From assembly GCF_013409065.1 (NCBI RefSeq), contig NZ_JACBZP010000001.1, positions 1,736,001 to 1,800,000 of the forward strand: a stretch of DNA of 64,000 bases. The letters run 5' to 3'. The stretch is from Spelaeicoccus albus. GTDB lineage: Bacteria > Actinomycetota > Actinomycetes > Actinomycetales > Brevibacteriaceae. Position numbers and translations under genes: made by a program. The notes under the pieces were generated by a model that was not told where the DNA came from, did no database searches, and saw nothing but the letters and a program-made list of their open reading frames with translations. Position 1 is the first letter of the stretch, and every line of letters starts with the position of its first letter. Shown here piece by piece: positions 24,309-63,608 of the stretch.

Positions 24309-24401
24309 CGGTGGCTTTCTGCCGGCGACCGCCCGTACGACTATCGTTTGTCTGCCGTGATGTGGTTCACTTGAAGAATCCAATTTCATAGCCGACAAAT
24401 C

Positions 24402-24592
24402 GAAGCGGGAGAGTCCGTGCCAGCCAGGTGACGGACGCCGTAGGAGCAACTCCTCCCCGGGAATCTCTCAGGCACACGTACCGTTTCGACCAGGCAACTC
24501 TGAAGAGCAGCCGGCTTCGCCGGCTCACCGACGGTGCAAGCGCCAGTGCAATATGACGCAAATCTCTCAGGTTCGATACAGAGGGGGGAGGA
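24402..24592 (+). promoter_or_regulatory. Tandem glycine riboswitch upstream of gcvT
   Basis: Two aptamers in series. The first (about 24404-24500) has GCGGGAGAG, CCGTAGGAGCAACTCC and AATCTCTCAGGCA. The second (about 24501-24588) has GAAGAGC, CACCGACGGTGCAAGC and AAATCTCTCAGG, closing with ACAGAGG. These are the conserved blocks of glycine riboswitches, which as tandem pairs usually switch on glycine cleavage genes when glycine is high. The second aptamer ends about 54 bases before the gcvT start. Of the 337-base gap between the DUF202 pair and gcvT, the first 90 bases show no other feature. Confidence 0.95.
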
Positions 24593-55732: not shown

Positions 55733-56491
55733 ATGGCGCAAAACGGTGCCCGTGGGGTGCAGTCCGTTGAGCGGGCGCTGGAAATCCTCGAGCTCATCAC
55801 CGATGTGGGCGGGGAAGTGACGTTGAGCGAGTTGTCCGCGCATACGGATCTGCCGTTGCCGACCATTCACCGGCTGCTTCGTACGCTTGTTGGGCGAGGA
55901 TATGCCCGCCAGCTTCCCAACCGGCGCTATTCGCTCGGGGCCAAGCTGATCCGGCTGGGCGAGGTGGCGGGCAGTCAGTTGGGCGGGGCCGCTACACCGT
56001 ACCTCAAGGAAATCGTCGACACGCTTGATGAAACGGCGAACATGGCGATTTTGGAATCCGACATGGTCGTCTACATCGCTCAAGTGCCATCGAAGCATTC
56101 GATGCGGATGTTCACCGAGGTCGGGCACCGTGCTCACCTGCACGACACCGGCGTGGGCAAGGCAATTTTGGGTGAACTCGACGATGCCGAAGTGCGCCGC
56201 ATTGTCGAGCGCACCGGCATGCCGACTCCCACTCCCAAGAGTCTGGGCACCATCGATGCTTTGCTGGATGAACTGGCTCGCGTGCGCGAACGCGGGTACT
56301 CGATCGATGAAGAAGAACAAGAACTCGGCGTCCGCTGCTTTTCCATGATCGTGCCGGACGCCCCGACGCCGATGGCGATTTCGGTGTCGGGGCCCGTTTC
56401 CCGCGTCGACGACACATTTGCCGAGCGGGCAGTGCCGACCCTGCGTGACGCCGCCGCCAAGATCTCGAAGACCCTGGCTCAACAGGGGTAA
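55733..56491 (+). CDS. IclR-family regulator of the purine/glyoxylate island (AllR-like)
   Basis: A 252-residue regulator. HTH: SVERALEILELITDVGGEVT, then LSELSAHTDLPLPTIHRLLRTLVGRGY; effector domain from about residue 85 with VYIAQVPSKHSMRMF, HDTGVGKAIL and the conserved late GVRCFSMIV. AllR-type members bind allantoin or glyoxylate and repress ureide genes. The ATG at 55733 is preferred (GGAG 9 bases upstream); an earlier frame start would run through the probable operators. It diverges from the malic enzyme operon and is the best candidate for the factor binding the shared TTTC-N7-GAAA sites. Confidence 0.87.
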   Translation: MAQNGARGVQSVERALEILELITDVGGEVTLSELSAHTDLPLPTIHRLLRTLVGRGYARQLPNRRYSLGAKLIRLGEVAGSQLGGAATPYLKEIVDTLDETANMAILESDMVVYIAQVPSKHSMRMFTEVGHRAHLHDTGVGKAILGELDDAEVRRIVERTGMPTPTPKSLGTIDALLDELARVRERGYSIDEEEQELGVRCFSMIVPDAPTPMAISVSGPVSRVDDTFAERAVPTLRDAAAKISKTLAQQG

Positions 56492-56511: not shown

Positions 56512-58053
56512 TCAGCTGATCCCGAGGATTTGTTGGATCGGTCCGACACAGAAGTACACGACGAACGCGGCCGACACCACCCACATCAGCGGATGGACCT
56601 CTCGGGCGCGACCCTGAACTGTCCGAATGATCGAGAACGCGATGAATCCGGCGCCCAACCCGTTTGCGATCGAATAGGTGAACGGCATCAGGGTGAACGT
56701 GAGAAACGCCGGGAGCGTGATCCCGATATCGGACCAATCGATGGTGCGGATTTGCGACACCATCATGAAGCCGACGACCACCAGAGCCGGCGCCACCGCT
56801 TCGAACGGCACTACCGACACCAGCGGTGCGATGAAGGCCGACGCCAGGAACAACAGCCCCGTGACGACGCTGGCGAACCCCGTGCGGGCACCCTCGGCGA
56901 TGCCTGCCGCGGACTCGACGAAGATCTCGTTCGAGGACACCGAGCCGAACCCGCCGGACATGGACCCGATGGCATCGACCAGCAGTACGCGGTTGGCATT
57001 CGGGAAGTTATTGTCCTTGTCGAGCAGATGCGCTTCGCTGGCCAGGCCCGTCATCGTGCCCATAGCGTCGAAGAAAACGCTGAGCAGAATGGTGAACGTC
57101 AACAGCACGGCCGAGATGAATCCGATGTCGGCAAACGCGCCGAACAGACTGATCTTTCCGAACAAGGACAGGTCCGGGACTGAAAAGAAGTCGTGCGGCA
57201 TGTTCGGCACCATGAGCGACCAACCGCTCGGGCTTTGCGAACTCGGCGGAGTGTCGGTGAGCGCCTGCAGGATCATGGCGAACACCGTCGACGCCACGAT
57301 GCCGATCAAAATGGCGCCCTTGATCTTGCGAACCTGCAAAATGATGGTGAGTACCAGCCCGAAGACGAAGACGAGGGTCGGCCAACCCACGAGCAGCCCG
57401 CTTTGCCCGAGTTGCACCGGAACCGTCGTCCCGGCGGCGTCCGGGACCCGGCGGACGAAGCCGGCGTTCACCAGGCCGATAATCGCCACAAACAAGCCAA
57501 TCCCGACTACTATGGCGGTCTTCAGCCCGGCCGGTACCGCTCTGAAAACCGCTTCGCGGAATCCACTGAGCACCAAGAGGAACATGATGACGCCCGAGAT
57601 CAACACGAGACCCATCACATCCGGCCAGGTCAGTCCCTTGGTGGTGGCGATTGTCGCCGAAACGAAGGCCGTCACCCCCAACCCGGCCGCCAGTGCGAAC
57701 GGATACCTGGCCCATGCACCCATCAGGATCGTCGTCACGCCGGCAACAATGGCAGTGACCGCTGCCACCTGCGGGACGCCGAGAGTCTGACCCGATCCGT
57801 CCGGCCCGCTCAAGATGAGGGGATTGAGCACCACGATGTAGCACATCGCAAAGAACGTGGCCAAGCCTCCGCGTATCTCGCGGAAGAACGTCGAGCCGAG
57901 CTCGGTGATCTTGAAATATCTGTCGATCGGTCCGGGGCGCTTGGTCTTCCGGCCCGGGTCGTTTGATGCGGGGTCCTTTGATGCGGGGTCGAAAGATTCC
58001 GGGGCGGACGGCCCGGCGTTCGGCGAGCCGGACGAACGTGATGTCAATGCCAT
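56512..58053 (-). CDS. AzgA-type NCS2 purine permease
   Basis: A 513-residue permease with about 13 membrane helices. TFFREIRGGLATFFAMCYIVVLNP (AzgA family start), FVESAAGIAEGARTGFASVVTG and DAMGTMTGLASEAHL are signatures of the hypoxanthine/adenine/guanine branch of NCS2. A 30-residue repeat-like leader rich in DPAS/N precedes it (FDPASKDPASNDPGRK). AAGGGGGTC precedes the ATG. It is 12 bases downstream of the guanine deaminase gene on the same transcript, so guanine or hypoxanthine import is likely. Opposite orientation to the IclR gene. Confidence 0.9.
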   Translation of the reverse strand: MALTSRSSGSPNAGPSAPESFDPASKDPASNDPGRKTKRPGPIDRYFKITELGSTFFREIRGGLATFFAMCYIVVLNPLILSGPDGSGQTLGVPQVAAVTAIVAGVTTILMGAWARYPFALAAGLGVTAFVSATIATTKGLTWPDVMGLVLISGVIMFLLVLSGFREAVFRAVPAGLKTAIVVGIGLFVAIIGLVNAGFVRRVPDAAGTTVPVQLGQSGLLVGWPTLVFVFGLVLTIILQVRKIKGAILIGIVASTVFAMILQALTDTPPSSQSPSGWSLMVPNMPHDFFSVPDLSLFGKISLFGAFADIGFISAVLLTFTILLSVFFDAMGTMTGLASEAHLLDKDNNFPNANRVLLVDAIGSMSGGFGSVSSNEIFVESAAGIAEGARTGFASVVTGLLFLASAFIAPLVSVVPFEAVAPALVVVGFMMVSQIRTIDWSDIGITLPAFLTFTLMPFTYSIANGLGAGFIAFSIIRTVQGRAREVHPLMWVVSAAFVVYFCVGPIQQILGIS

Positions 58054-58065
58054 GATCCGACCCCC

Positions 58066-58557
58066 TTAGTATGCGGTCCGCGTGGCCGAAGCATTCCATT
58101 CATCGAATGGCGCTACTGCCGGGATGTCGTCGGGAACCGCGCGCGTGACCTGTAGCGATCGCTCTTCCACGGGAGTGTCGAAGTAGTCGTAAAAGACCGC
58201 GTCGTCAAAGCCCCCGGCCGCGGCGTCGTGCCTGTCGGCCGCAAAGACTATGCCGTCCACCCGGGCCCACAGTGACGACGCCAGGCACATGGGGCACGGT
58301 TCGCAGCTCGTATAGAGCATGGCTCCGGAGAGATCGAATGTGCCAAGTGCCGCGCACGCATTGCGGATTGCCGAGACTTCGGCGTGGGCGGTCGGATCGT
58401 TATTGGCCGTGACACGATTCGTGCCTTCGAAAACTCGGCCGGAGGCGTCGACGACGACTGCTCCGAACGGTCCGCCGTCATTGCGGACGTTTTCGACGGC
58501 CAAGTGCACGGCCCGGGCCAAATGCGATTCGGCCCCGGGATCGGTGGTGTTCATCAT
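58066..58557 (-). CDS. guaD: Guanine deaminase (CDA-type)
   Basis: A 163-residue zinc deaminase of the cytidine deaminase fold converting guanine to xanthine. His58 and Glu60 in PTAHAEVSAI and Cys88/Cys91 in CEPCPMCLASSLWARVDG are the zinc and proton-shuttle residues; a C-terminal FDEWNASATRTAY resembles the C-terminal tail that completes the active site in B. subtilis GuaD. The start at 58557 uses AAGGAAG 6 bases upstream. It leads the guaD-permease transcript, whose leader carries the minus copy of the paired RNA-like element. Confidence 0.9.
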   Translation of the reverse strand: MMNTTDPGAESHLARAVHLAVENVRNDGGPFGAVVVDASGRVFEGTNRVTANNDPTAHAEVSAIRNACAALGTFDLSGAMLYTSCEPCPMCLASSLWARVDGIVFAADRHDAAAGGFDDAVFYDYFDTPVEERSLQVTRAVPDDIPAVAPFDEWNASATRTAY

Positions 58558-58631
58558 GGCGACTTCCTTGCCTCGGGGCAGGGCCGGGGCGGAGGCGGCC
58601 AAAGCGCCGGCATCGCTACGACCCTGCACGT

Positions 58632-58684
58632 GGTGTAGGTCCAGTTACGCCTGGTAGATAGCACCGGGTCTAGCGGTGCCCGCC
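58632..58684 (-). promoter_or_regulatory. Candidate structured leader RNA, minus copy (upstream of guaD)
   Basis: On the minus strand GGCGGGCACCG (58684-58674), loop CTAGACC, then CGGTGC and TATCTACC, followed by AGGCGTAACTGG and ACCTAC. GCACCG/CGGTGC is a 6-bp stem; CCAG/CTGG a second hairpin; CGTGG and CCACG further out could close the whole. A TAGTGT box lies 13 bases before GGCGGGC, so the element would begin the transcript. It ends about 75 bases before the guaD start. The J2/3-like TATCTACC recalls purine riboswitches, but the rest does not match them. Confidence 0.5.
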
Positions 58685-58744
58685 GTGGGCTGCCACGACA
58701 CTAGCAGCGAAATGTGAGCTGCGCCATAGTAAAAAGCGAAATTT

Positions 58745-58760
58745 TGAAATATGTACTTCA
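58745..58760. promoter_or_regulatory. Dyad in the guaD-xdhA intergenic region
   Basis: TGAAATATGTACTTCA, symmetric except at one pair, lies centrally between the two RNA-like elements. A partial match to the IclR-type sites (CTTCACATGGTGGAA) overlaps its right end. It is the likely protein-binding site for both divergent promoters. Confidence 0.4.
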
Positions 58761-58777
58761 CATGGTGGAAATTGTGG

Positions 58778-58806
58778 TTGTCGGGAGTCGGGTGTGATGC
58801 TAATCT
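58778..58806 (+). promoter_or_regulatory. Promoter of the xdhABC operon
   Basis: TTGTCG (58778-58783) and TAATCT (58801-58806) with a 17-base spacer; TAATCT fits TANNNT. The predicted start of transcription is near 58813, just before the plus copy of the RNA-like element. Confidence 0.55.
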
Positions 58807-58819
58807 CAAATAAGCCTAA

Positions 58820-58893
58820 GGCGGGCTCTTTCGATGACGGAGAGCTATCTACCGGGCGCACTTAATCGAGAACTACTAAGTAGCGGCCGGTTC
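58820..58893 (+). promoter_or_regulatory. Candidate structured leader RNA, plus copy (upstream of xdhA)
   Basis: GGCGGGCTCT, a loop, AGAGC, TATCTACC and GGGCGCACTTA. GCTCT/AGAGC replaces the GCACCG/CGGTGC stem of the minus copy with different bases that still pair. Downstream ACCGG-CG with CG-CCGGT and ACTTA/TAAGT can form a long hairpin (58851-58893) with loop ATCGAGAACTAC. It starts 13 bases after the -10 box and ends about 70 bases before the xdhA start. Together with the minus copy it fills most of the 404-base gap 58558-58961, which has no gene. Confidence 0.5.
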
Positions 58894-58961
58894 ACCGCGT
58901 GAGTGGGCGCGTCGGCGTTCGCCTGCGGCGGAGCGGCAGCTACCGGAAGATCGGAGTCGCC

Positions 58962-60416
58962 ATGGAACGCCCCAGTCTCACAGTGAACGGCCGGCTGCGA
59001 CGGGTCGACCCGGCCGGTGTTCATACGACGGCGCTGCAATGGCTGCGCTCGGACGGTCTCACGGGCGTCAAGGAAGGGTGCGCCGAGGGCGAATGCGGTG
59101 CGTGCGCCGTGATGGTCGCGACCCCGGACGGTGACGGCGGGACGGCATGGACGTCGATGAATGCGTGCCTGATCCCCATTGCCGCGCTCGACGGGCAAGA
59201 GATCGTCACGGCCGAAGGCGTCGGTACCTCCGAGCGTCTGCATCCGGTGCAAGAGGAGATGGCCGAGCGCGGCGGGTCCCAGTGCGGGTATTGCACGCCG
59301 GGATTCGTGTGCAGCATGGCTGCCGAGTTCTATCGCCCCGACCGGCAAAGCGACGCCATGGGCCGGCCCTGCAACGAGCACGGGCCCAACGGATTCGACC
59401 TCGAATCGCTCAGCGGCAACTTGTGCCGTTGCACCGGGTACCGGCCGATCCGCGACGCCGCGTACGCGCTGGGCGCGCCGGACGCCGGCGACGTGCTGGC
59501 GCGGCGGATGAACGACCCGGCCCCCGGGCCGGTAGGCACCGATCTGAAAAAGTCCGACGGCCGGTTCGTCCGCCCGGCCGGCCTGGAGAACGCGCTGACG
59601 CTGCTTGCCGACAACCCTGGTGCGCTCCCGGTCGCCGGGTGCACGGACTGGGGAGTCGACGTGAACATTCGCGGACGCCGCGAATCCCTCGTCGTCGCCA
59701 TCGACAGGCTGCCCGAGCTGTGCGCTATCGACGAGTCCGACACCCACGTCGATATCGGCGCTGCGGTGCCGTTGACGCAGATCGAGCAGTGGGCACACGG
59801 CCGCGTCCGGCTCCTGTCGCAACTTGTGCCGCAGTTCGCCTCCCGGCTCATTCGCAACCGTGCCACCCTGGGCGGCAATCTCGGCACCGGATCGCCGATC
59901 GGCGATACGCCGCCGGCTCTGCTGGCGCTTGGAGCATCCGTTGTGCTGGCATCGCGCGACGGCGAACGCGTCGTTCCGCTGGGCGATTACTTCACCGGGT
60001 ACCGGCAAACGGTACGAGCCGACGGAGAACTCATTCGCGCCGTCCGGATCCCGCTGCCGTGCGCACCGATGACGGCCTTCCACAAGGTCGCCAAGCGCAG
60101 GTTCGACGACATCTCCAGCGTCGCTATCGGGTTTGCGCTCGACATCGACGACGGGCAGATCACCGCCGCGCGAATCGGACTGGGCGGGGTGGCCGCCACG
60201 CCGATCCGGGCCGTGCACACCGAACAGGAGCTGGTCGGCCGCCCGTGGAACTCCGACACCGCTCGGGACGCCGCTGCCGCTCTCGGCCGCGAAGGCACGC
60301 CAATGAGCGACCACCGCGCCAGCAGCGAATATCGCAGCATCATGCTGTCGCAAGCCATGCTGAAATTCTTCGCGGAGTCAGGATCCGCACCGACAACGAT
60401 CGGAGTCACCCCATGA
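58962..60416 (+). CDS. xdhA: Xanthine dehydrogenase small subunit (Fe-S and FAD)
   Basis: A 484-residue subunit. Residues about 1-80 form the plant-type [2Fe-2S] domain (KEGCAEGECGACAVMV with Cys40/45/48), about 85-165 the second cluster (CGYCTPGFVC, LSGNLCRCTGYRPI), and about 190-480 the FAD domain (LVPQFASRLIRNRATLGGNL, GTGSPIGDTPPALLALG). It passes electrons from the molybdenum centre to NAD+. The ATG at 58962 has GGAG 6 bases before it; a longer frame begins at a GTG that overlaps the leader RNA. First gene of xdhABC. Confidence 0.96.
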   Translation: MERPSLTVNGRLRRVDPAGVHTTALQWLRSDGLTGVKEGCAEGECGACAVMVATPDGDGGTAWTSMNACLIPIAALDGQEIVTAEGVGTSERLHPVQEEMAERGGSQCGYCTPGFVCSMAAEFYRPDRQSDAMGRPCNEHGPNGFDLESLSGNLCRCTGYRPIRDAAYALGAPDAGDVLARRMNDPAPGPVGTDLKKSDGRFVRPAGLENALTLLADNPGALPVAGCTDWGVDVNIRGRRESLVVAIDRLPELCAIDESDTHVDIGAAVPLTQIEQWAHGRVRLLSQLVPQFASRLIRNRATLGGNLGTGSPIGDTPPALLALGASVVLASRDGERVVPLGDYFTGYRQTVRADGELIRAVRIPLPCAPMTAFHKVAKRRFDDISSVAIGFALDIDDGQITAARIGLGGVAATPIRAVHTEQELVGRPWNSDTARDAAAALGREGTPMSDHRASSEYRSIMLSQAMLKFFAESGSAPTTIGVTP

Positions 60417-62800
60417 GCGCCTTGTCCGAACGCCCAGACGGCGCCGTCGTCGGCACCCGTGAACCGCACGAAAGCGCGGATCTCCACGTGACGGGGCGTG
60501 CCCTCTACACCGACGACATCGCCATGGCCCGAAAAGACGCGTTGACCGCGTGGCCCGTGCAAGCGCCGCACGCCCACGCCGCTGTGACGGCGATCCGTAC
60601 CGAGGCCGCGCTCGCTGTCTCCGGCGTCGCGTACGTCTTGACGGCGTCCGACGTGCCGGGCGTCAATGATTCCGGGGTCTCCGGCGACGAACCGCTTTTC
60701 CCCGGAGAAGTGCGGTACTACGGCCAAGCGGTGTGCTGGGTTCTGGGGGAGACGGCCGAGTCGGCGCGGCTCGGCGCCGCCGCCGTCGAGGTCGACTACG
60801 ATCCGTTGCCGTCCATCATGACGCTTCCCGAAGCGATAGCGGCCGGCAGCTTCCAGGGAGCACACCGCGTGACTCGGCGCGGCGACGCCGACGAGGCGCT
60901 GGCGTCGGCCGCCCATGTCTTCGAGGGACTGACCGAGATGAGCGGCCAAGAGCATTTTTACCTCGAGACGCAGGCATCGCTCGCCTACGTCGACGAAGGC
61001 GGCCAAATGTACGTACAGGCCGGCACGCAGCACCCCACCGAGACGCAAGAGATCGTGGCGCACGTGCTTGGTCTGCCCAGCAACGCCGTCACCGTCCAAA
61101 ACGTGCGGATGGGCGGCGGGTTCGGCGGCAAGGAATGGCAGCCGCACGGGCTGGCCGCTGTCGCGGCGCTCGGGTCGATGTGCACGGGGCGTCCGGTCCG
61201 GCTGTCGCTGAACCGCAACCAGGACCTGACGATGACCGGCAAACGCCACGGCTTTCACGTGCCGTGGACGGCCGGTTTCGACGGTGACGGGCATATCGTC
61301 GCGCTCAAGGCCGAGTTGACGGCGGACGGCGGGTGGAGCCTGGACCTGTCCGAGCCGGTGCTCGCCCGGGCGCTTTGTCACCTGGACAATGCGTACTGGA
61401 TCCCGAACGTGGAAGCGTCCGGCCGAGTGGCCAAGACGAACAAGACCTCCCAAACGGCATTCCGCGGGTTCGGCGGGCCGCAAGGCGTCTTCGTGATCGA
61501 AGACATCCTCGGCCGGTGCGCGGCGCCCCTCGGTTTCGACCCGGCCGAACTGCGCCGCCGCAACTTCTACCGACCCGGCCAGACGACCCCGTACGGGCAG
61601 CCGGTCCGGCATGCGGCAAGGATGCACGACATCTGGTCGCAGCTGCTGGCCGACTCCGGCTTCGACCGGCGCAGCGCCGAGATCGAGGCGTTCAACGCCG
61701 GCAGTCCGCACACCAAGCGGGCGCTGGCAGTCACCCCCATCAAATTCGGCATTTCGTTCAACGTGGCCGCGTTCAATCAGGCCGGCGCGCTCGTACTCGT
61801 GTACAAGGACGGCTCGGTGTTGATCAATCACGGCGGCACCGAGATGGGGCAAGGGCTGCACACCAAGATGATCCAGGTGGCGGCCACGGCGCTCGGCGTC
61901 GAGCGGTCACGGGTGCGGCTGGTACCGACCAGAACCGACAAGGTGCCCAATACGTCGGCTACTGCCGCAAGCACCGGCGCCGATCTGAACGGGGGCGCCG
62001 TGAAGAACGCATGCGAACAGATCCGCGAACGCCTTGCCGGCGTGGCCGGCGGAATGCTCGGGGCGAATCCGTCCGACGTGCGGTTTTCCGGCGGAACTGT
62101 GATGGCACTGGGAGTGCACGACAAGGAGCTGAAATTCGACGACGTCGTGAACGCCGCCTATAACCAGCGGGTGCAACTGTCGGCGTCCGGCTACTACCGG
62201 ACCGAAGGGTTGCATTGGGACGCCGAGTCCTGGCACGGCTCGCCGTTCAAGTATTTCGCCTACGGGGCAGCGGCGTCCGAAGTCGAGGTCGACGGGTTCA
62301 CCGGGGCGTACCGGACCAGGCGCGTCGACATCGTGCACGACGTGGGCGACTCGCTGTCCCCGTTGATCGACATCGGCCAGGTCGAAGGCGGATTCGTGCA
62401 GGGCGCCGGCTGGCTTACGCTGGAAGACCTCCGATGGGACACCTCCGACGGCAACGGCCGCGGCAGGCTGCTCACCCAGTCGGCGAGCACGTACAAGCTG
62501 CCGAGCTTTTCCGAAATGCCCGGCGAATTCAATGTGACGCTCTTCGAACGGGCACATGAGGACGGCGTCGTCTACGGCTCCAAGGCCGTCGGGGAGCCGC
62601 CGCTCATGCTGGCGTTCAGCGTACGCGAAGCGTTGCGCCAGGCCGTCGCGGCATTTGGACCTGCCGGCCGGGAGACCGAGCTTGCGCACCCGACGACGCC
62701 CGAAGCCGTGTTCTGGGCGCTGCACGAGGCGCGCGGGGCCGCCGACCCGGCGGAAACGGAGGCGAGCAATGTCGGTGACGAAATCCTTGCCGGAGGCTGA
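60413..62800 (+). CDS. xdhB: Xanthine dehydrogenase large subunit (molybdenum cofactor)
   Basis: A 795-residue subunit that holds molybdopterin and oxidises hypoxanthine and xanthine to urate. Substrate residues known from bovine and Rhodobacter enzymes are visible: Glu180 in GQEHFYLE, Arg in TAFRGFGGPQG and the late Glu in VGEPPLML, so purines rather than other aldehydes are the likely substrates. GGGFGGKEWQPH and NHGGTEMGQGLHTKM bind the cofactor. The ATG at 60413 overlaps the xdhA stop. The last 32 bases overlap xdhC. Confidence 0.96.
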   Translation: MSALSERPDGAVVGTREPHESADLHVTGRALYTDDIAMARKDALTAWPVQAPHAHAAVTAIRTEAALAVSGVAYVLTASDVPGVNDSGVSGDEPLFPGEVRYYGQAVCWVLGETAESARLGAAAVEVDYDPLPSIMTLPEAIAAGSFQGAHRVTRRGDADEALASAAHVFEGLTEMSGQEHFYLETQASLAYVDEGGQMYVQAGTQHPTETQEIVAHVLGLPSNAVTVQNVRMGGGFGGKEWQPHGLAAVAALGSMCTGRPVRLSLNRNQDLTMTGKRHGFHVPWTAGFDGDGHIVALKAELTADGGWSLDLSEPVLARALCHLDNAYWIPNVEASGRVAKTNKTSQTAFRGFGGPQGVFVIEDILGRCAAPLGFDPAELRRRNFYRPGQTTPYGQPVRHAARMHDIWSQLLADSGFDRRSAEIEAFNAGSPHTKRALAVTPIKFGISFNVAAFNQAGALVLVYKDGSVLINHGGTEMGQGLHTKMIQVAATALGVERSRVRLVPTRTDKVPNTSATAASTGADLNGGAVKNACEQIRERLAGVAGGMLGANPSDVRFSGGTVMALGVHDKELKFDDVVNAAYNQRVQLSASGYYRTEGLHWDAESWHGSPFKYFAYGAAASEVEVDGFTGAYRTRRVDIVHDVGDSLSPLIDIGQVEGGFVQGAGWLTLEDLRWDTSDGNGRGRLLTQSASTYKLPSFSEMPGEFNVTLFERAHEDGVVYGSKAVGEPPLMLAFSVREALRQAVAAFGPAGRETELAHPTTPEAVFWALHEARGAADPAETEASNVGDEILAGG

Positions 62801-63608
62801 CTACGATTGGCTCGCTGCCGTCCGCGAACTGCGCGCGCGGCGGGAGCCCTGCGTGATAGTGACGCTGGCCGGCGTCCGCGGTCACAGTCCAAGGAATGCC
62901 GGCGCCAAGATGATCGTGTCGTCGGGCAGCGTCAGCGGCACCGTCGGCGGCGGTAACCTCGAGGCGACCACCATTGCGCGGGCCCGCAGCATGATCGCCG
63001 GCGGCGCCGTCGAGCCCGCGATGATGGTGATTCCGCTGAACGACAAGGTGCGTACCGAGTACGGCCGGCAATGCTGCGGAGGTGAGGTGACGATCATGCT
63101 CGAACCGGTGCGGGTTCCGCCGACCATCGCGATCTTCGGCGTCGGACACGTCGGCATCGAATTGGCAAGGATTTTGTCGCGGCACGAAATCGACTTGTTC
63201 CTTGTCGACTCGCGGGAGGACATGCTCACCGGGGAGCGGCTGGCTCCGATCATGGACGGTCCGGCCACTATCGAAGTACGCAACGCTCCGGTGCCCGAGT
63301 CCGTACTTGCCGAGCTGCCGGCGTCGGCGCACGTAGTCATCATGACGCATGATCACGCCGAGGACATCGCCGTGTGCGATGCAGCGTTGCGGCGGCCCGA
63401 CCTGGCATCGATCGGGCTCATCGGGTCGAGCGCGAAATGGGCACGTTTTCAGGTGCAGCTCCGGGCCGAAGGACATGGTGACGACGACTTGGCGCGGATC
63501 ACCACGCCGATCGGACGCCGCGACATCGCCGGTAAGGATCCCGCCGCGATAGCCGTGGGTGTGGCCGCCGAGCTACTGGCGGCCCTGACCGCATCCTCGG
63601 TCGGTTGA
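62769..63608 (+). CDS. xdhC: XdhC-type molybdenum cofactor insertion chaperone
   Basis: A 279-residue XdhC/CoxI protein that binds molybdenum cofactor, promotes its sulfuration and inserts it into the large subunit. VTLAGVRGHSPRNAGAKMIV, SGTVGGGNLEATT and RQCCGGEVTIMLEPV (the Cys-rich XdhC_CoxI motif) form the first domain, and IFGVGHVGIELARIL with a Rossmann fold the second; it ends IGRRDIAGKDPAAIAVGVAAELL. The ATG at 62769 has GGAGG 7 bases upstream and overlaps xdhB by 32 bases, so translation is coupled. Confidence 0.94.
   Translation: MSVTKSLPEADYDWLAAVRELRARREPCVIVTLAGVRGHSPRNAGAKMIVSSGSVSGTVGGGNLEATTIARARSMIAGGAVEPAMMVIPLNDKVRTEYGRQCCGGEVTIMLEPVRVPPTIAIFGVGHVGIELARILSRHEIDLFLVDSREDMLTGERLAPIMDGPATIEVRNAPVPESVLAELPASAHVVIMTHDHAEDIAVCDAALRRPDLASIGLIGSSAKWARFQVQLRAEGHGDDDLARITTPIGRRDIAGKDPAAIAVGVAAELLAALTASSVG

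Follow-up and report, generated by a model that had tools for sequence, protein, structure and literature searches.

A conserved two-helix leader RNA, probably a riboswitch, ahead of guanine deaminase and xanthine dehydrogenase genes in Spelaeicoccus albus and its relatives

The genes for guanine deaminase and xanthine dehydrogenase of Spelaeicoccus albus diverge from one intergenic region, and the question raised by this locus is what kind of element stands before both of them, once on each strand. In the window, by which we mean the whole stretch of 64,000 nucleotides analysed, the minus strand carries guaD (58066-58557), encoding a guanine deaminase-type zinc deaminase (dCMP_cyt_deam_1, MafB19-deam), and next after it an NCS2 purine permease gene (Xan_ur_permease; 56512-58053, minus strand); beyond the permease lies the gene of an IclR-type regulator (55733-56491). 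The plus strand carries xdhS (58962-60416; xanthine dehydrogenase small subunit, 2Fe-2S and FAD), xdhL (60413-62800; molybdopterin-binding subunit) and the gene of an xdhC-type accessory protein (62796-63608). These Pfam assignments agree with the enzymes named in a first-pass annotation of the same DNA, which had proposed two diverging copies of an undescribed structured leader RNA. Elsewhere in the window, a tandem glycine riboswitch with two RF00504 aptamers (24396-24591, plus strand) and an FMN riboswitch (RF00050; 30477-30598, plus strand) were recognised.

Both copies, of about 42 nt, are built as that annotation had described. On the minus strand, before guaD, TAGTGT is followed after 13 nt by GGCGGGC; on the plus strand, before xdhS, TAATCT stands at the same distance from the same heptamer, and the two copies share the block GCTATCTACC-R-GGCG behind the stem. 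The core of the guaD copy (58649-58690, minus strand; GCCCACGGCGGGCACCGCTAGACCCGGTGCTATCTACCAGGC) comprises P1 (GCC..GGC), the GG-CC pairs, the internal loop CG/AUCUA and P2 (GGCACCG..CGGTGCT), and P1, GG-CC and P2 are all present in its MFE fold. The core of the xdhS copy lies at 58814-58857 (plus strand; GCCTAAGGCGGGCTCTTTCGATGACGGAGAGCTATCTACCGGGC), and its P2 stem reads GCTCT/AGAGC as against GCACCG/CGGTGC in the guaD copy. A pattern search of the own genome returned exactly these two matches, and none with the reversed control. Covariance-model matches cover 58642-58694 (57.8 bits) and 58810-58864 (48.4 bits); in the 4.03-Mb genome, model R1 assigns them E-values of 1.3e-11 and 3.9e-9 with the next best match at E 7.4, and genome E-values of 1.5e-10 and 3.5e-8 were likewise obtained for the two copies by covariance model. 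The start codons are more distant than the 70-75 bases given at first: 91 nt separate the guaD copy from the guaD ATG (58557) and 104 nt the xdhS copy from the xdhS ATG (58962, Shine-Dalgarno GGAG), or 41 nt if an upstream GTG at 58899 is used.

Is the element peculiar to this genome? When 84,980 species genomes were scanned for the exact pattern, at least 118 stretches matched; among the matches listed, at least 104 scored ones lead to guaD, mostly over a distance of 87-125 nt, and nearly all hosts were Arthrobacter, Pseudarthrobacter, Paenarthrobacter, Glutamicibacter, Kocuria and their kin. Matches in Mesorhizobium, Dyella, Enterobacter, Chloroflexi and others stood without gene context and were dismissed as chance. 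Since conserved letters are built into such a pattern from the start, a covariance model was built and whole genomes were searched blind. The model located the element before guaD and xdh genes in relatives: 89 of 295 genomes of the Micrococcaceae, the Arthrobacter family, carry it, as do the window's genus, a sister genus, four genomes of another genus in the window's family and one genome of a third family. Within a class-wide sample of 395 genomes, no match at E 0.01 or better appeared outside the known groups. In all, roughly one hundred related soil bacteria have the element ahead of guaD or xdh genes.

The linkage to these genes is nearly exclusive. Chance matches aside, the readable downstream gene is always guaD, an xdh operon or, once, a purine permease, and divergent copies, down to 28 bits with the first model, precede guaD or xdh operons that start with xdhS or xdhC. 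Among the genomes covered by both searches, the element occurs in 43 of 73 guaD-bearing genomes versus none of 76 guaD-less ones; G168 was missed under the strict filters, and adding it gives 44 guaD-bearing genomes with the element. More than one copy, two or three, is present in several genomes; L198, L209 and L229 repeat the window's arrangement, a divergent guaD/xdhS pair in which each strand has its own element. Beside such a pair, a third copy at L197:1609-1658 (plus strand; G1000:C1:1666108-1666157) stands before a second guaD-like gene, and in Arthrobacter luteolus (L057:5079-5130 and L219:3080-3131, both minus strand) the element lies immediately 5' of an NCS2 permease gene with no intervening guaD. 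The matches that received no BLAST assignment are contig ends, xdhC-first or xdhS operons recognised by inspection, a chance match (L028) and L203:3366-3413 (minus strand; G827:C7), where an xdhS-like start is followed by a short frame, possibly a broken or misassembled xdhS. Two further groups of matches were rejected as chance: weak ones of 20-25 bits in another family, within coding sequence whose frame we read as pyruvate-dehydrogenase-like, and the match at L231, which sits in coding DNA that we take to be of the argininosuccinate-lyase type.

The fold common to these copies is a two-helix rod, 36-60 nt in length and mostly 40-45, with near-invariant internal loops GGCG / AUCUACC and the consensus GYC-(N2-3)-GG-CG-RGY-[P2]-RYY-AWCWA-CC-R-GGY. 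It consists of P1 (GYC/GGY), the GG-CC pairs, an internal loop (CG x AUCUA) that hardly varies and a variable, covarying P2; RNAalifold, unprompted, paired GYC with GGY, GG with CC and GGC with GCU. Among 73 distinct sequences, 94.5% of the cells are paired and 27 cells are changed on both sides (9.5 in shuffles); when the partner strand is slid, pairing falls to 31-50%. Three forms (G-U, A-U and G-C) occur at pair 15-37; in the outer part of P2, C-G, U-G, U-A and G-C are among the pairs found. P2 arms pair better with their own partners than with arms swapped between sequences (-8.9 vs -7.2 kcal/mol, p=5e-5), which bears out the covariation seen between the two window copies; this and the other p-values overstate independence, since the leaders are related. 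P1 shows one-sided changes only, and the GG-CC pairs, being invariant, count neither for nor against pairing. In the loop, written AWCWACC, two positions accept A in place of U. The length of P2 varies from about 15 nt to more than 60 nt (L161, L199); lengthened hairpins with the conserved loops kept were noted in L161:3121-3224 (>60 nt), L162, L199, L200 and L207. The refutation set beforehand, namely related leaders with conserved sequence and no conserved base pairs, failed on these pairs. Judged on its sequence comparisons, the element is almost certainly a real, conserved and structured leader RNA.

Its place in the transcript can be estimated from the promoters. An extended -10 element, TGNTANNNT, ends 6-11 nt 5' of P1 in 48 of 53 non-redundant elements from relatives; in the window its counterparts are TGCTAGTGT (58698-58706, minus strand) for guaD and TGCTAATCT (58798-58806, plus strand) for xdh. 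This spacing puts P1 at the very beginning of the mRNA or close to it, and the element should start the transcript, as had been supposed. Farther upstream of guaD, a conserved DNA-level block, ACTATGGCGCAGCTCACA (58713-58730, minus strand; consensus in relatives TgGcg..gctcaca), covers the -35 region and a possible operator. Most guaD promoters of the relatives show such a block 5' of the -10 (AAA..TTTCCAAAAA, TATGGCG..gcTCACA). Its conservation suggests a transcription-factor site that works alongside the RNA, for which the product of the neighbouring IclR gene is a candidate.

Downstream of the rod, the leaders contain strands that could provide an expression platform. In the guaD leader, strand 2 (GCAGGGTCG; 58619-58627, minus strand) can pair with strand 3 (CGGCCCTGC; 58578-58586, minus strand) in a 9-bp helix of -20.5 kcal/mol by stacking; strand 3 lies just 5' of the guaD ribosome-binding site, whose likely Shine-Dalgarno sequence is AAGGAAG (58563-58569, minus strand). 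In the xdh leader, strand 2 (CGGCCGGTT; 58884-58892, plus strand) is complementary to the core strand CTACCGGGC, and strand 3 (CTACCGG; 58939-58958, plus strand) mimics the 3' strand of the core and runs into the xdhS Shine-Dalgarno GGAG. Across the family, strand 2 is complementary to strand 1, the core 3' strand CUACCRGGC, with a mean stacking of -12.7 vs -9.2 (sd 0.35) in dinucleotide shuffles, and the variable R of strand 1 meets its partner as A-U 30 times, G-C 13 times and G-U four times, being unpaired four times. The pairing of strands 2 and 3 likewise exceeds that of swapped partners (-15.7 vs -13.1, p=5e-5; p=0.002 when strand 2 is limited to the stretch that pairs with strand 1 plus six bases on each side), and compensating changes occur (GAAGCCUGGUAGCC/GGUUACUGGGCUUC in L013 vs GGAAGUCUGGUC/GGCUGGACUUCC in L199). 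These two alternative pairings of strand 2 appear supported, more weakly than the core rod. In the window's family, four divergent Brevibacterium-like genomes have a core that ends near the start of xdhC, and a core-complementary strand 2 (GGUAGCCC) lies between the Shine-Dalgarno sequence and the xdhC start codon.

The layout of these strands favours, as a model, a translational ON switch. Strand 2 would pair with strand 1 and so disrupt the rod; a ligand that holds the rod would free strand 2 for pairing with strand 3, which would release the Shine-Dalgarno sequence and turn guaD translation on. When the rod is enforced in folding, 11 leaders gain more than 0.1 in predicted accessibility of the Shine-Dalgarno sequence and one loses accessibility (Wilcoxon p=0.006); in the two leaders of the window the predicted change is small, and many other leaders show none. 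In many Arthrobacter relatives, a strand 3 of GGCUUCC is able to mask the Shine-Dalgarno GGGAGUC. Sequestration as a family-wide rule was not supported by the swap control, in which this anti-Shine-Dalgarno pairing of strands 3 and 4 did not rise above swapped partners across the family (p=0.11) and was clear in some clades only. In the xdh leader, strand 3 is so near the xdhS Shine-Dalgarno sequence that control might have either sign.

Could the rod be a divergent member of a class already described? The metabolic niche is the same, and UCUACC also occurs in junction J2/3 of the purine riboswitch, a likeness that the first-pass annotation had pointed out for TATCTACC, while noting that the canonical loops are absent. 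Kinship on this ground was rejected: the element lacks the P1-P2-P3 junction and the loop-loop contact of RF00167, the strand 3' of the rod is a competitor for core bases and supplies no P3, the bases in question are not constant (UAUCAACC, UAACAACC), and scans at E up to 10 or up to 5 gave no match of the leaders to the RF00167 or xanthine-II covariance models. Xanthine-II, a variant of the guanine riboswitch with an architecture reported as consistent with an ON switch, also precedes xanthine dehydrogenase and other purine catabolic genes, but it is a three-way junction confined to Firmicutes (PMC9295807). Closer in shape is NMT1, or xanthine-I, likewise a small rod of two stems that has strongly conserved internal loops, accompanies purine-catabolism genes and controls translation, and for which a genome with a divergent pair has been published (PMC7373994). 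It is, however, a proteobacterial OFF switch found mostly with dioxygenase and transporter genes, its covariance model gave no match in the leaders (cmscan), and its conserved bases and loop sizes are others: the junction GAAGCG / AU with the C34 G35 bulge (G7 A8 A9 G10 C11 G12 / A39 U40; PMC8266621) does not correspond to WAW-GGCG / AUCUACC-R with a variable bulge. Across Rfam 15, no family matched the leaders beyond chance at gathering or permissive thresholds (E up to 5-10). A literature search over openly available main texts yielded no description of a guaD or xdh leader motif, and the main texts of two comprehensive ncRNA surveys mention neither guanine deaminase nor xdh. Membership in a known class is very improbable on these matches and folds, and within the texts searched the leader appears undescribed.

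A DNA operator for a transcription factor, the alternative named in the first-pass annotation, would fit the place of the block near a promoter, with the separate conserved block TATGGCG..TCACA just upstream. Such an operator would hardly sit downstream of the -10, have P2 arms that differ in sequence and length (about 15 to >60 nt) and yet pair, and be followed by more covarying pairs far down the leader; we consider it the least credible reading. Alternatively, the RNA might sense no small molecule itself and serve as the target of a regulatory protein that binds RNA, either a repressor or an antiterminator. A protein, too, could well recognise so compact a rod with its invariant internal loops, and so narrow a family is what a lineage-specific protein would produce, but co-conservation with a gene for such a protein is not evident, the IclR regulator encoded near guaD belongs to a DNA-binding type, and competing strands are a layout typical of riboswitches, which together leave this explanation unlikely. 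Slightly less unlikely is a riboswitch of the same class that turns expression off or acts through transcription termination, a reading that rivals the ON mechanism and not the RNA itself. Strand 3 of the xdh leader adjoins the Shine-Dalgarno sequence, so that its pairing with strand 2 could hinder translation, and the many leaders with no predicted change would fit; against it stand the net predicted direction, ON, and the lack of a U-run behind those leader helices that were read. Catabolic genes are, moreover, expected to be induced.

On balance, the element is probably an undescribed class of cis-regulatory leader RNA at the 5' end of guaD and xdh mRNAs, most likely a riboswitch. It shows general traits of riboswitches, namely a conserved structured domain in the 5' leader, with the transcript start placed by promoter consensus, and an association with the genes of one pathway across lineages. 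As to the ligand, a purine of the guanine-xanthine-urate route is the natural guess because of the genes downstream, with xanthine as the plausible first choice and guanine after it. Molybdopterin, put forward earlier as an alternative, is unlikely: the commonest target, guaD, encodes a zinc deaminase, an enzyme independent of the molybdenum cofactor. The Moco RNA motif resembles the element in preceding the gene of a molybdenum enzyme where xdh is the target, and differs in this same respect of the main target, and its covariance model did not match the leaders.

Altogether, we lean, by a modest degree, towards a new class in the Micrococcaceae, the window's family and relatives, in which a rod of two helices, with no relation to the folds of the purine, xanthine-I and xanthine-II riboswitches, would bind xanthine or guanine and switch guaD and xdh on together, in some genomes from both strands of a single intergenic region. 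If this holds, common soil bacteria would possess a further independent RNA solution for sensing an oxidised purine or guanine; its aptamer of about 45 nt would be small and suited to structure work and sensor design, and guanine deaminase and xanthine dehydrogenase may be co-regulated at the level of RNA.
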